From positions 38,595 through 102,594 of the forward strand of contig JANWYI010000006.1 in the NCBI GenBank assembly GCA_025055255.1: a DNA stretch of 64,000 nucleotides. The letters are read 5' to 3'. This stretch comes from Anaerolineae bacterium (GTDB taxonomy: Bacteria; Chloroflexota; Anaerolineae; Aggregatilineales; UBA2796). Every line of letters begins with the position of its first letter. The first letter of the stretch is position 1. Of this stretch, positions 14,078 to 40,126 are shown in pieces. Under the pieces are notes generated by a model that had not been told where the DNA came from, did no database searches, and saw nothing but the letters and a program-made list of their open reading frames with translations. Made by a program: the position numbers and the translations under genes.

Positions 14078-14210
14078 AGTCAAAGTGGGCATTCGGGCTT
14101 CGCCTCAGCGGCGTTACCGTTGCGGGAACAGCGTCGGACTTACACCGATCTTCCCCCGAAGGTCTGCCAGACCTTGCGCCGTACATCCGGGTAGCGGCGC
14201 CCTTTGACCA
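14078..14210 (-). promoter_or_regulatory. Cobalamin riboswitch aptamer
   Basis: minus strand GGGGGAAGATCGGTGTAAGTCCGACGCTGTTCCCGCAACGGTAA...GCGAAGCCCGAATGCCCAC (B12 box), closed by P1 GTCAAAGGGC/GCCCaCTTTGAC. Confidence 0.93.
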
Positions 14211-34443: not shown

Positions 34444-34560
34444 ATAGGAAGCTCCATGTAGCCAGAGGTTAAAAGTCAACAACTAGACTCAGCATAGTTC
34501 AAAATGTGCTTAACAAGCATTTCAAAAACGTACCAACTTGATGTAACGAGGTCTTCGCTC

Positions 34561-35409
34561 ATGGTCAATGAATTGGTCAGCACAGCGTGGCTTGCCGAGC
34601 ATTTGGAGGACAAAAACCTGCGCATTGTGGACATTCGCGGTCATGTCCTGCCTGCGACCGAGCCGCCGCCGCATTACTTCAATCACTACGCTGACTATCT
34701 GGTCAGCCACATTCCAAACGCCGTCTTCATAGACTGGGTACACGAGATCACTGACCCAGCTGATCCGCGCCATGCGCAGATCGCGCCGCCTGACCGATTC
34801 GCAGCGGCGATGAGTCGAGCAGGCATTGGCGATGAGACATTTGTGGTCGCTTACGATGATGCAGGCGGCATGTTTGCAGCGCGGCTATGGTGGGCGCTCA
34901 ACTATTATGGACATTCACAGGTCGCCGTGCTGGACGGCGGCTGGCAGAAGTGGATCGCTGAAGGGCGACCGATCACAGCCGAGCTTCCAACTTTTGCGTC
35001 AACGGTCTTTACGCCGCGCCCTGATCCTGCGTGGTATCGCAACAGTGCGCAAGTGTCGGCAGCGCTTGGCACGTCAATCCGTCTTGTGGACATGCGCAGT
35101 CCAGAGGAGTTTCGTGGTGAGGCGTCGCGCGCTGCGCGCAAAGGGCACATTCCCGGCGCTGTCAATCAGCCGCGCCGCGAGCTGCTGGGCGAAGATGGTG
35201 CGCTGCTGCCACCTGAGGCACTGCGTCAAAAATTCGCCGCGCTAGGCGTCACTGATGAGACAGAAGAGGTGATTTTTTATTGCAACGCAGGCGTCTCTGC
35301 CAGTTTTGGCTTGTTGGCGCTGCGCGCCGCAGGTATTCAGGCACGCGCGGCTGTCTACGATGGATCGTGGAAAGATTGGGGCAACGATCCTGAGAAACCG
35401 ATTGAATGA
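34561..35409 (+). CDS. Tandem-rhodanese sulfurtransferase (cytoplasmic)
   Basis: VSTAWLAEHLEDKNLRIVDIRG...VIFYCNAGVSASFGLLAL. Confidence 0.92.
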   Translation: MVNELVSTAWLAEHLEDKNLRIVDIRGHVLPATEPPPHYFNHYADYLVSHIPNAVFIDWVHEITDPADPRHAQIAPPDRFAAAMSRAGIGDETFVVAYDDAGGMFAARLWWALNYYGHSQVAVLDGGWQKWIAEGRPITAELPTFASTVFTPRPDPAWYRNSAQVSAALGTSIRLVDMRSPEEFRGEASRAARKGHIPGAVNQPRRELLGEDGALLPPEALRQKFAALGVTDETEEVIFYCNAGVSASFGLLALRAAGIQARAAVYDGSWKDWGNDPEKPIE

Positions 35410-35441: not shown

Positions 35442-36671
35442 CTACTCTGACAAGCGCAGCTTGATGCCCAGCCACACGCCTGCAAACACTGCTGCGCCGA
35501 AAACCCAGCCTGAGACCGCAAATGCCGAGATACCTGAAAGCAATGTCCCGACTGTGCAGCCAAGCGAGACCATGGCGCCCCAGCCCATCAGGACGCCGCC
35601 TAAAAGCGCGGTCAGCACATTACGCAGCGTCAGCCGTGAGAGCTGAAAGCGATTGGTGAAGAGTGCGATTGCCAGTGAACCTGCCACCAAGCCGCCGATC
35701 AGGAAGCCGTTATTAGTGATAGTGTGCGTCACGCGCGTTGCGCAACCTGCAAAGCTGTCTAAGCCAACTAGACGCTCTGCCAACCAGCCTGCCTCAGTCA
35801 GCGCTGTGCGCGCTAGACTGCCCAGCTGCGACGTCACGCCGAGCGGCGATACGCGGAAGTAAGCGATTGTGCCGACTATGCCTACTAACGCGCCTGTCAC
35901 CAGTGGATTCCAGCGAGTCACGAACACAGCTTGGTAGATTCTTTGCCACGTGAGCTTGCCGCCTGCTTGTGCAGGCAACTCAGGCAAGTAGCGCAACAGC
36001 AGGACAGCGATCAGGCTCAGCACAGCCAGATGGAAGGCGAGACTTCCGCCGTAGCCAAGCGTCTTAGGCAGCCATGCTACAGGCGCGACCGAGATTGCCT
36101 CGACATAGAGCGTGTGCCATGTGAAAAAGCCGACTCCAAAGCCGACGAGTGCGCCAAAAAGCGCGAACGGCGCGCGCGCGTAGCCTTCGCCCATGCGATA
36201 GAGGTGTCCGCTGATGCACGCACCTGAGAGCGCCATGCCTATGCCGAAGGCAAGTCCGCCTGCAGCCAAGACCCAGCTCACTGGTCCGATGTGCGCATTA
36301 GGCGGCAAGTATTGACCGCTCGGATTTGGCATGAAAGCGCCGAAGACAATTGCGTAGCCAATGCCGCCAACGGCTAAAGCGCTCAGCAGGGCGAACAGAC
36401 CAGAGCTGTTCCGATTTTCGATGAAGTCGCGGAAGATGCAGAAAAAGCAAAAGCGTCCACGCTGGAAGATGACACCGAGTGCGACACCGATCAAAAGCGA
36501 GAGCGACGCGCCTGCGCCGCGATTGGGCGTATCGTGCAGGCTAAAAGCGAGTGCCACAAGCGCGCCCAGAATCAGCCATGCCAAGCCCATGCGGACTGCT
36601 GCGACAACTCTTGGATTGTTGAGTGACGTGGAGGCGGCTTTTACGCCGCCTCCGAGTGTGGTCTCAGCCAT
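35442..36671 (-). CDS. YeeE/YedE family (thiosulfate/sulfur) transporter
   Basis: RGRFCFFCIFRDF...GFAMALSGACISGHLYRMGEG-type Cys motifs, GWGAMVSLGCTVGTLLSG. Confidence 0.9.
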   Translation of the reverse strand: MAETTLGGGVKAASTSLNNPRVVAAVRMGLAWLILGALVALAFSLHDTPNRGAGASLSLLIGVALGVIFQRGRFCFFCIFRDFIENRNSSGLFALLSALAVGGIGYAIVFGAFMPNPSGQYLPPNAHIGPVSWVLAAGGLAFGIGMALSGACISGHLYRMGEGYARAPFALFGALVGFGVGFFTWHTLYVEAISVAPVAWLPKTLGYGGSLAFHLAVLSLIAVLLLRYLPELPAQAGGKLTWQRIYQAVFVTRWNPLVTGALVGIVGTIAYFRVSPLGVTSQLGSLARTALTEAGWLAERLVGLDSFAGCATRVTHTITNNGFLIGGLVAGSLAIALFTNRFQLSRLTLRNVLTALLGGVLMGWGAMVSLGCTVGTLLSGISAFAVSGWVFGAAVFAGVWLGIKLRLSE

Positions 36672-36678
36672 ATCAGAC

Positions 36679-37623
36679 TTACTGTCTGCCCCAGACCGTG
36701 CCAGCAGGGTTGGCGATTGGCACGCCGACTGCATTGCCCCACTCTGTCCATGAGCCGTCATACTGTGCCACGTCGTAGCCCAAAATCTTGCTCAGGACGA
36801 ACCAAGTGTGGCTGGAGCGCTCGCCAATGCGGCAATAGACGTAAATCTTCTTGCTCCCATCTACGCCGACCGAGGCATACAGCTGGCGCAGCTCCTCAAC
36901 CGACTTGAACGTGCCATCTTCTTTCACAGCTTTTGCCCACGGCACATTGACCGCGCCGGGAATGTGACCCGCGCGGATTGCAAGCTCTTGGAAGCCCTCT
37001 GGCGCGAAGATACGCCCTTCGTACTCGGCTGGGGAACGAATGTCTACGATCACGCCCTCAGCCTCGCCCTTGACCACTGCTAGCACGTCAGCTAGGAAGG
37101 CGCGAATCTCGCGGCGCGCAGGCTTGGCAGTGAAGTTGCCCTCAGGATGGCTGACTTGCTGCGTTGAGAGCGGACGATTCTCGCGCTCCCACTTGGCGCG
37201 TCCGCCGTCGAGCAAGCGCACGTCCTCATGTCCGTAGATCGTGAAAATCCAAGCGCCCCAAGCGGCAAACCAGTTATTGTTGTCGCCGTACAGCACAACA
37301 GTTGTGTCGTTGTTGATGCCGGCAGCGCGTGCCAACTTCTGGAATGCCTCTGGCGAGGCGATGTCGCGGATGACAGGGTCAACAAGGTCAGTGTGCCACA
37401 CAAAGTTGACGGCGCCAGGAATGTGTCCGCGCTCATAGACGCCTGGCACCACGCTCACTTCCACTACGCGCACCTTTGGATCGTTCAGGCGCGCTGCGAG
37501 CCACTCTGTGCTGACCACAGCGCTCTCAGGCAGGTCAGCGCGTGCGCGCAGCGAAGGCACGGCGAAGCCACCTGCAATTAGCACGACCACAGCGAAAAGT
37601 GTCAGAAGACGACGGATAGTCAT
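36679..37623 (-). CDS. Exported tandem-rhodanese sulfurtransferase
   Basis: Signal peptide MTIRRLLTLFAVVVLIAGG; ...IYVYCRIGERSSHTWFVL; SD gaaaggggag 5' of ATG at 37623. Confidence 0.9.
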   Translation of the reverse strand: MTIRRLLTLFAVVVLIAGGFAVPSLRARADLPESAVVSTEWLAARLNDPKVRVVEVSVVPGVYERGHIPGAVNFVWHTDLVDPVIRDIASPEAFQKLARAAGINNDTTVVLYGDNNNWFAAWGAWIFTIYGHEDVRLLDGGRAKWERENRPLSTQQVSHPEGNFTAKPARREIRAFLADVLAVVKGEAEGVIVDIRSPAEYEGRIFAPEGFQELAIRAGHIPGAVNVPWAKAVKEDGTFKSVEELRQLYASVGVDGSKKIYVYCRIGERSSHTWFVLSKILGYDVAQYDGSWTEWGNAVGVPIANPAGTVWGRQ

Positions 37624-37645: not shown

Positions 37646-37735
37646 TCAGCGTTTGCATACAAGCCGAACAGAACGAATCGAACGAACCGAACAAATTGCC
37701 GAACAGCGCCTCAGGCTACAACACGATGAGTCCAT
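37646..37735 (-). CDS. Cys-rich short ORF (MDSSCCSLRRCSAICSVRSIRSVRLVCKR), putative leader peptide 2
   Basis: ATG with SD aaaggag 7 nt upstream; 5 Cys in 29 codons; ends 22 nt before the rhodanese start. Confidence 0.5.
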   Translation of the reverse strand: MDSSCCSLRRCSAICSVRSIRSVRLVCKR

Positions 37736-37766
37736 AGGCAAACTCCTTTCTGTGGCGTGCGCCAAG

Positions 37767-37795
37767 CAACAAAAAGCCCCGAACTCAGTCGGGGC
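37767..37795 (-). terminator. Rho-independent terminator in 5' leader of sulfur cluster (attenuator)
   Basis: minus strand gccccga-ctgagt-tcggggc-ttttt. Confidence 0.82.
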
Positions 37796-37822
37796 AGGTT
37801 GAGCAAGGCGCACAATACGGCA

Positions 37823-37927
37823 TTAGGCGTCCCACACCCCGACCTTTGCACAGCGACACAGCGCCGCACACAAACACATGGGCAGACACAGGTCAAAAGG
37901 CGAAGTCAGGTGTTGAACGGAAGACAT
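37823..37927 (-). CDS. Cys-rich short ORF (MSSVQHLTSPFDLCLPMCLCAALCRCAKVGVWDA), putative attenuator leader peptide
   Basis: Five TGT codons at positions 14,18,20,24,26; TAA stop upstream of terminator; its codons 29-31 (GTCGGGG) complement the terminator 5' arm. Start codon uncertain (no strong SD). Confidence 0.55.
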   Translation of the reverse strand: MSSVQHLTSPFDLCLPMCLCAALCRCAKVGVWDA

Positions 37928-37968
37928 GGTGATATCAGTTTCTCTAATGCCTCTCAAAACGCACATAC

Positions 37969-37997
37969 AGTTTAGATAGAACTGATTACTTTGTCAA
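37969..37997 (-). promoter_or_regulatory. Sigma70-type promoter for sulfur cluster leader (TTGACA-N17-TAAACT)
   Basis: -35 at 37992-37997, -10 at 37969-37974 on minus strand. Confidence 0.65.
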
Positions 37998-38035: not shown

Positions 38036-38070
38036 ACAAAAAAATGCGCCTCAGGGCAACCTGAGGCGCG
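38036..38070 (-). terminator. Rho-independent terminator
   Basis: gcgcctcagg-gcaa-cctgaggcgc with A-run on the plus-strand 5' side, i.e. U tract on minus strand. Confidence 0.85.
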
Positions 38071-38086: not shown

Positions 38087-40126
38087 CTAGCGCAATGGCT
38101 GCAGATTGGTCTCGACTTTGCCGTTTGCGTCAATATACTGGTCAACGACCCAGCCTGTCAGACCGTCAGCTTCGCGCTGCACCTGCCACCAACGCAAGTT
38201 ATCGGCAAAAACTGGACCAGCCAGAATGCGCACCACCTCATTTGGACGCAAAATGCTGATTGCGTTGCTGCGATTGGGCAGGTACTGCGGCGTGCTGCGT
38301 ACAATGACAGGAGCGCCAGGCGGCACTATGGCACGCCCGCCGATCAGCAAGCCAAGCGGATTCTGACCGTCTGTGGCGCGTAGGGCTGGCACAGCTGTCG
38401 GTGCAGCTGGACGCGGCGTCGGCGTAGCTGCTGGCATCACAGGCGGCACAGCAGGCGGTAGAACAGGCGCCGTCACTATGTTCGCAGGAATGGCTGTGAA
38501 TGACATCGCAGGGCTGAAAGTAGGCTGACCGCCGTCGGCGCCGATCACATACGGATAGCCGGGCGTGCCGAGCGGCAAGGCTGCAATGCCGATCTTGACG
38601 CGCGGCGCGGCGCTCAGCACGTTTTGATAGCTATCATTGGCGTTAATCCGCGCGATCATCGCCACATCTGACTCCACGATGCTGAAGGCAACTAGCGAGG
38701 TGTTCAGTGCAGGCGTGATCGCGGCAATGCCATAGCCTTCGCTCTCATAAACCTGCTGTAACCCGCCGCCTAGGAGCGGTCGTGCGAACAGTCTCAGCCT
38801 GTAGCTCTCGCCGCTCAGCGCGAAGAACGATGCGGCGAGTGGCGCGCTGCTATTGACGGCTACGCGCTGAATCAGCTCGCGCGTCACAAGGAAAATGGTG
38901 CTTCCGTCGCCGCTCCAGCCCAGTTGGTCAGGCACAGGCACGTCGCTGAGCGGCGTCTTAGCAGTGACCGCTAGGTCTAGCAACACCACTTGGCTGCCGC
39001 GCCTGAAGTCCAGACTTGGCTCTAACGCCACAGCGCTTGCGCCGCTCGGCGAGACGCGCACTCTGGTCACGTTTGGGAACGACCACAAGCGCGTACCGTC
39101 GAAGGCAGTCAGCGCTAGACCAGAGCCATCACAGCCAATTGTGTGCAGAAAACCGTTGCCACGCCACTTGAAAACTGTCCGATTGCCGTTGAAGCCTGCC
39201 TCTTGGAAGTAGTTAATGATCGTCGGTCCGAAGCCGCCGCTGAGACAGCCGACGGTCAGCTCAATGCGTCCAGCAGGCACAGCTACGCCGCCTGTGGCAG
39301 GCACAGCTAGAATGTTGTAAATCAGACTGTCAGGGTTAGGCGACGGCGTGGTTGACGCTGCATAGGCAATTTGTGACCCATCTGGCGACCAAGCTGGCGG
39401 AATCTCTACTAGAAGACCTGTGGCAATCGGCATAGGCGGACTGCCGCTAGCGGCTACGAAAAGCGTCTGTGACCTCTGGTCAACAAAAGCTAGTCGGCTA
39501 CCATCGGGCGACCAGCTCAAGTGGATGTAGTTCCGCTGACCGCCTGTGTAGCCACCTTCGTAGACAAAACCTTGTGCATCACCTGTCAGCGGCACGTAGC
39601 CTTGCGCGCTGCTCAGACTCGTCACATAGACGTTGCCGTCACGCCCGACAAACGCCAGAATCGGCGCGGCAAGCGTCACAGGCGCTGAGACTAGGCCTAT
39701 CGGCGGCGGCACAGGCAGAGTGCCGCCTGCAGCGGCAGGTGGCGGCGCAGCGACCGTCGGTGGCACGTTCGCGCCGACGCCAACGCCTGTGCAGAAGAAA
39801 ATCAGTGAGTTATCGTTCGAAATGCGATACTCATAGCTGCCAAAACCATTCACTGTGACGCGGACGACCCAAGCGCGAGTCTGACCGGGCGCGTTGCGCT
39901 GACCGTTTGGACAGCCAAGGTTATCGTCGCGCACCACGATCTGCTCGTACGTCCAGAAGCCGTCAAAGCGCATCCGAGAGACCGTTCGTCCAATTCGTGC
40001 GCTCACGTCTTGAAACACACGATCTAGCGCCGCCTCGCTCGGCGCGCCTTGTGCCTTAGCTATTGGCGCAGCCGTCAAGCTGGCGAAAAAAAGCGCTAGT
40101 ATCGCTAAATAGGTAAATTTCCGCAT
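38087..40126 (-). CDS. Secreted WD40/PD40-like protein with C-terminal SH3-like domain
   Basis: Signal peptide; WSPDGSRLAFVDQRS, WSPDGSQIAYAAS; C-terminal VRSTPQYLPNRSNAISILRPNEVVRILAGPVFADNLRWWQVQ. Confidence 0.85.
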   Translation of the reverse strand: MRKFTYLAILALFFASLTAAPIAKAQGAPSEAALDRVFQDVSARIGRTVSRMRFDGFWTYEQIVVRDDNLGCPNGQRNAPGQTRAWVVRVTVNGFGSYEYRISNDNSLIFFCTGVGVGANVPPTVAAPPPAAAGGTLPVPPPIGLVSAPVTLAAPILAFVGRDGNVYVTSLSSAQGYVPLTGDAQGFVYEGGYTGGQRNYIHLSWSPDGSRLAFVDQRSQTLFVAASGSPPMPIATGLLVEIPPAWSPDGSQIAYAASTTPSPNPDSLIYNILAVPATGGVAVPAGRIELTVGCLSGGFGPTIINYFQEAGFNGNRTVFKWRGNGFLHTIGCDGSGLALTAFDGTRLWSFPNVTRVRVSPSGASAVALEPSLDFRRGSQVVLLDLAVTAKTPLSDVPVPDQLGWSGDGSTIFLVTRELIQRVAVNSSAPLAASFFALSGESYRLRLFARPLLGGGLQQVYESEGYGIAAITPALNTSLVAFSIVESDVAMIARINANDSYQNVLSAAPRVKIGIAALPLGTPGYPYVIGADGGQPTFSPAMSFTAIPANIVTAPVLPPAVPPVMPAATPTPRPAAPTAVPALRATDGQNPLGLLIGGRAIVPPGAPVIVRSTPQYLPNRSNAISILRPNEVVRILAGPVFADNLRWWQVQREADGLTGWVVDQYIDANGKVETNLQPLR

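Follow-up and report, generated by a model that had tools for sequence, protein, structure and literature searches.

Attenuators of the trp/his type, such as trpL and hisL of Proteobacteria, carry a leader ORF in which codons for the sensed amino acid are repeated. In a 2010 survey, amino-acid leader-peptide systems were known only from Proteobacteria and Actinobacteria, to which a histidine leader in bacilli was added (PMC2965389). Poly-Cys leaders without conserved terminators have been predicted in Actinobacteria (Seliverstov 2005, PMC1262725), and those of Mycobacterium smegmatis have been described as leaderless, cysteine-responsive attenuators (Canestrari 2020, as cited in PMC9031893 and PMC9094748). 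The mycobacterial leaders are short ORFs that contain runs of Cys codons and precede sulfur genes; they are taken to respond to cysteine supply. In a search of limited coverage, which leaves novelty unproven, we found nothing relevant on attenuation by cysteine, whether in Chloroflexota or next to thiosulfate genes. Neither a Cys-specific trp/his-type attenuator with a terminator nor any comparable amino-acid attenuator from Chloroflexota turned up in the literature searched.

The leader described here is located on the minus strand of a 64-kb stretch of Chloroflexota DNA (the window), ahead of genes for a rhodanese and a sulfur transporter. Like trpL and hisL, it has an ORF with a repeated codon, but the amino acid sensed would be cysteine, the host belongs to Chloroflexota, and there is an additional closing helix, a second Cys ORF past the terminator and, in relatives, a second terminator. 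The logic is already known; what appears to be new, judging from the sequence, is the amino-acid specificity and the lineage. The mycobacterial leaders, previously put forward as a precedent for this locus, are a real one (PMC1262725; Canestrari 2020, via PMC9031893), with short Cys-rich ORFs before sulfur genes as here. However, they lack a conserved terminator, whereas the present leader combines a probable 5' UTR of ≈35 nt with a conserved intrinsic terminator and a covarying antiterminator.

Elements of the leader

Several elements had been claimed in a preliminary description of this DNA, and we found them in place: every base of the promoter was as claimed, the ORF with five Cys codons (ORF1; codons 14, 18, 20, 24 and 26, all TGT) was present base for base, GTCGGGG within it was complementary to the terminator 5' arm, and the terminator itself (GCCCCGA-CTGAGT-TCGGGGC-TTTTT, 37795–37771) begins 27 nt past the TAA stop of ORF1, for a claimed distance of about 28 nt (Table 1).

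Table 1. Features of the leader and operon in the window; positions count from the first base of the window
Feature	Position	Strand	Sequence	Basis or remark
Promoter	37969..37997	-	TTGACA-N17-TAAACT	TTGACA 37997-37992, TAAACT 37974-37969
Closing helix P1, 5' strand	37944..37951	-	GGCATTAG	Upstream of ORF1 start; pairs with CTAATGCC
ORF1, Cys-rich leader ORF	37823..37927	-	MSSVQHLTSPFDLCLPMCLCAALCRCAKVGVWDA	Read in sequence
Protector (segment 1), 5' strand	37903..37919	-	CGTTCAACACCTGACTT	Inside ORF1; RNAfold of leader
Protector, 3' strand	37828..37846	-	AAGGTCGGGGTGTGGGACG	Contains antiterminator arm; RNAfold and locus-specific pairing
Antiterminator arm (segment 2)	37837..37843	-	GTCGGGG	ORF1 codons 29-31; complement to 37794-37788
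Closing helix P1, 3' strand	37819..37826	-	CTAATGCC	Overlaps ORF1 stop codon; complementarity across loci
Terminator 5' arm (segment 3)	37789..37795	-	GCCCCGA	CCCCGAC 37794-37788 pairs with antiterminator arm
Terminator 3' arm (segment 4)	37776..37782	-	TCGGGGC	Followed by TTTTT 37775-37771
Shine-Dalgarno of ORF2	37743..37749	-	AAAGGAG	Anti-SD duplex -8.2 kcal/mol
ORF2, second Cys leader ORF	37646..37735	-	MDSSCCSLRRCSAICSVRSIRSVRLVCKR	Conserved across loci
Rhodanese, putatively exported, first structural gene	36679..37623	-		PF00581, two stretches (two Rhodanese domains)
YeeE/YedE-type sulfur transporter	35442..36761	-		PF04143 Sulf_transp; upstream end of ORF overlaps rhodanese

The -10 hexamer ends ≈40 nt before the ATG of ORF1. 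A transcription start placed from the promoter would give ORF1 a 5' UTR of ≈35 nt, so that, judged by promoter position, the start codon is not at the transcription start as in a leaderless ORF. A hairpin (GCGCCTCAG/CTGAGGCGC) with a T-run at 38069–38046 on the minus strand forms a terminator just past the upstream gene (38087–40126), and the rhodanese–YeeE operon therefore needs its own promoter. The genes behind the leader belong to families that handle sulfur (rhodanese and sulfur transporter). The rhodanese is presumably exported, given its hydrophobic N-terminus; the substrates of the two proteins and their contribution to cysteine are presumptive.

The window was scanned for ORFs with 4 or more Cys in 15 codons that end before a hairpin with a T-run and have a complement of at least 6 nt. 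This pattern matched exactly once in the 64-kb window and in none of 20 shuffled windows; in 499 kb around other rhodaneses there was a single match, likely another Cys leader. Neither the ORF1 nor the ORF2 peptide matched an NCBIfam family.

Conservation and pairing in orthologous leaders

We assembled leaders from 19 distinct loci with a rhodanese–YeeE operon, five in the window's genus and 14 in family f7 of the same order within the class Anaerolineae. The exported rhodanese is 87–93% identical in the four congeners and 63–74% in family f7, and YeeE follows it in 18 loci, the contig of the remaining one (L006) ending inside the rhodanese gene. The loci share a plan of promoter, ORF1, terminator (T1), in 11 cases a second terminator (T2), Shine-Dalgarno and ORF2, rhodanese and YeeE. 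TTGACA is kept in 17 of the 19, followed after 16–17 nt by a -10-like hexamer, which in nearly all other loci ends 30–52 nt before the ATG. An in-frame Cys-rich ORF with 3–7 Cys, its translation being predicted from sequence, and an intrinsic terminator (GC hairpin and T-run) between it and the rhodanese are found in all 19; a search for leaders that keep the terminator but have lost the Cys codons or the complement gave none. The only complete ortholog without the leader (G104) has its promoter directly before the gene, and this leader is also missing from rhodanese paralogs and more distant homologs. Additional leaders of the same kind occur in G059 (L160, a second copy), G053 (L146) and G080 (L152). 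The leader sequence of the G081 locus is that of SZPD01000130.1, from Anaerolineae bacterium CFX9, which falls in the same order as the window's genome.

Two weak points raised in the preliminary description hold in the window's genus. The Shine-Dalgarno of ORF1 is indeed poor there (dG -2.3 to -5.2), but several relatives have a good one. The rival +1 frame through the ORF1 tract is Cys-rich within the genus but not in most loci outside it, which settles the frame of ORF1.

The complement between ORF1 and the terminator ranges from 5 nt (L034, where it is poor) to 10 nt, and both sides vary together: GTCGGGG/CCCCGAC, GTCAGGG/CCCTGAC, GTCGAGG/CCTCGAC and CAGCCAGGG/CCCTGGCTG. When leaders and terminators were exchanged among the 19 loci, the mean length fell from 7.26 nt for own-locus pairs to 5.30 nt, with a best value of 6.37 nt in 10,000 permutations (p = 1e-4, the floor of the test); because the loci are related, these p-values are not strict probabilities, but they hold without the window's genus. 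Since the 7-nt complement of the window locus is by itself only weakly significant (shuffle p = 0.04), the significance comes from the 19-locus comparison. Covariation of both helices, proposed earlier as a check, was found in the genus: in the antiterminator, both partners of two G-C pairs are exchanged to give A-U, and 35/35 cells are paired, a fraction that drops to 37–51% when the partner is slid by 1–3 columns; two pairs of the terminator stem likewise change from G-C to A-U. The loci with two terminators served as a control: there, the arm matched T1 (p = 0.001 by energy, 2e-4 by exact complement), but not T2 (p = 0.69). The arm is separated by 6–22 nt from the nearest Cys codon upstream, and in 12 of the 19 loci the complement sits 10–13 nt upstream of the ORF1 stop, close enough for a ribosome at the stop to mask it.

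A scan for locus-specific pairing among all pairs of ten leader segments ranked two further helices at the top (z = -5.85 and -4.18). One of them, the protector, joins the 5' part of ORF1 to the antiterminator region (p = 1e-4 in 19 loci with overlap removed; p = 2e-4 when the genus is left out and 14 loci remain), and is absent or very weak in L112 and L114, where ORF1 is shortest. In several relatives its strand runs through the Cys codons, e.g., CAAACCTGTTGT against CCGCCGGGGTTTG in L117, so that stalling of a ribosome there would disrupt the helix. The other, the closing helix, pairs the ribosome-binding region of ORF1 with the stop region (p = 2e-4 by energy and 1e-4 by exact complement, 19 loci). 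In the five loci of the genus, 40/40 cells are standard pairs, with one change on both sides; elsewhere it reads GATACTGCCA/TGGCAGTATC in L112 and, in L113, AAACAAAGGT with its exact complement after the ORF1 stop, while it is weak or absent in ≈5 of the 19 loci. Without a ribosome, the closing helix would shut the leader, hide the start region and favor termination.

Some pairings lie outside this set. An outer helix GTGCGCC/GGCGCAC surrounds the terminator and T-run (37813–37807 with 37763–37757, minus strand); it is fully paired in three of the five congeners, one of them with a compensatory change, has one mismatch in a fourth and is mostly broken in G003. Outside the genus (e.g., L113, L117 and L125), pairing is also possible between the T2 5' arm and the 3' arm of T1. 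A relay, in which the T1 3' arm captures the T2 5' arm, is possible there (p = 0.0002); the T1 5' arm with the T2 3' arm is also significant (0.0006), because T1 and T2 resemble each other.

A predicted cysteine-responsive switch and its alternatives

Very probably, this leader senses charged Cys-tRNA by ribosome-mediated attenuation of transcription. The earlier claim of a cysteine-responsive trp/his-type attenuator is well supported at the sequence level by the 19 leaders, covariation, permutation and geometry; that picture was incomplete, as neither protector nor closing helix nor ORF2 formed part of it. The sequence elements, their conservation and their covariation were observed directly. 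From them we infer that the leader is translated, that ribosomes stall on it and that it responds to cysteine, as well as what ORF2 does. Protector 1:2, antiterminator 2:3 and terminator 3:4, each supported across loci, make up what appears to be a complete classical switch, backed by covariation and specific for cysteine. With cysteine present, a ribosome would reach the ORF1 stop and mask GTCGGGG, and the terminator would form ahead of the rhodanese–YeeE genes. If cysteine is short, the ribosome would halt on the Cys codons of ORF1 and disrupt the protector; the freed GTCGGGG would then capture the terminator 5' arm, allowing RNA polymerase to read through. With no translation, closing helix and protector would fold by default; both the start region of ORF1 and the antiterminator arm would then be hidden, and transcription would terminate. 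When the upstream ORF was removed, RNAfold chose the antiterminator in only one of seven leaders and favored the terminator in the other six. Since the terminator wins at equilibrium even without the upstream ORF, the switch must work kinetically.

Read-through transcripts would carry ORF2, which the preliminary description had missed. A Shine-Dalgarno, a start and Cys within the first seven codons, between terminator and rhodanese, were found in 18 of the 19 loci, compared to 0.36 expected from shuffles, with anti-SD duplexes of about -6 to -12.6 kcal/mol. The peptide starts MDSSCC in the window and reads MEPCCC, MESCCCR*, MEDCCCCHR*, MKLCCCR*, MHICCCRLC* or MDCCCSR* elsewhere. It is 4 to 29 residues long (longer in L127), and the stop position varies; the conserved core is the strong start with Cys codons directly after it. 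We rejected translational attenuation by ORF2 as a structural model, as the scan of ten leader segments showed no locus-specific pairing between the ORF2 area and the rhodanese start, and this leaves the mechanism of ORF2 without structural support. RNase J and Rho are encoded. ORF2 is probably a second starvation-dependent layer, acting through a parked ribosome that would protect the mRNA or block Rho; its role is the least certain step of the model. As a tentative proposal, possible rather than probable, the leader might be a two-stage cysteine sensor, in which ORF1 gates transcription and ORF2 the fate of the read-through mRNA. Here, a starved ribosome would park beside the ORF2 start, which needs no RNA structure of its own, and would protect the message from 5' decay by RNase J or shield it from Rho. 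Two short upstream ORFs also control one gene in ermB induction, but by antibiotic-driven translational attenuation (PMC8274638) and not by amino-acid starvation as proposed here. The tandem Cys ORFs raise the testable question of layered control by ribosome stalling.

From the window alone, where two frames are Cys-rich and the single 7-nt complement is marginal (p = 0.04), one might regard the hairpin as a partial terminator that acts constitutively, and the Cys-rich ORF as a chance product of the TG-rich tract. However, the 19 leaders share the frame, the run of Cys codons and the complement, compensatory changes are seen among them, and the scan pattern was absent from the 20 shuffled windows; the ortholog comparison refutes this reading as far as sequence can and leaves it an almost negligible chance. 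Control of translation or of Rho-dependent polarity by the Cys ORF, with the hairpin as a backup or processing site, would agree with the mycobacterial poly-Cys leaders, for which, lacking conserved terminators, Rho (PMC1262725) or translation (PMC9031893) has been suggested; it would also fit the presence of Rho and the conservation of ORF2 though no terminator follows it. Yet the antiterminator arm follows the terminator 5' arm at the level of single bases from one locus to the next, which would be without purpose in a translation-only model, and the search for pairing with the rhodanese start gave none; we regard this explanation as improbable.

There is also a very small chance that an attenuator of this kind senses another signal, such as translation slowing down in general, or damage by persulfide to Cys-tRNA or the ribosome. 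The rhodanese handles sulfane sulfur, as known for its family, and leader peptides can answer signals besides the amino acid, but Cys alone among the residues recurs consistently in both ORFs from locus to locus, an indication that the amino acid itself is the signal.

Cys leaders before other sulfur genes

In related genomes, Cys-rich leader ORFs with a terminator were also found before NIR_SIR sulfite/nitrite reductase genes, in L142 (G016), L164 (G417) and L154 (G091), the last with two complete units of Cys ORF and terminator in series. Others precede an operon of a JAB/M67 metallopeptidase and a rhodanese (L007, L008, L009, L015, L025, L133 and L148), where the Cys-rich ORF often looks leaderless. 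Because the antiterminator complement is short (4 nt) in most of these M67-type leaders, we do not claim the same mechanism for them. Pattern matches L143, L144, L145, L150, L162 and L163 were left out, as chance matches or otherwise. Together, the rhodanese–YeeE, sulfite reductase and JAB peptidase–rhodanese genes would make up a predicted cysteine regulon in a phylum most of which is uncultured. The JAB/M67 operon of the window's own genome (G000:C147, L024) shows a promoter and ATG, followed by sequence that reads N.

Two observations concern other parts of the window. A second rhodanese gene, ≈40% identical to the first, lies on the plus strand at 34504–35409 and converges on the YeeE gene. 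At gathering scores, Rfam gave no match in the leader region; an AdoCbl-II (cobalamin) riboswitch match above the gathering score was found at 14079–14172 on the minus strand.
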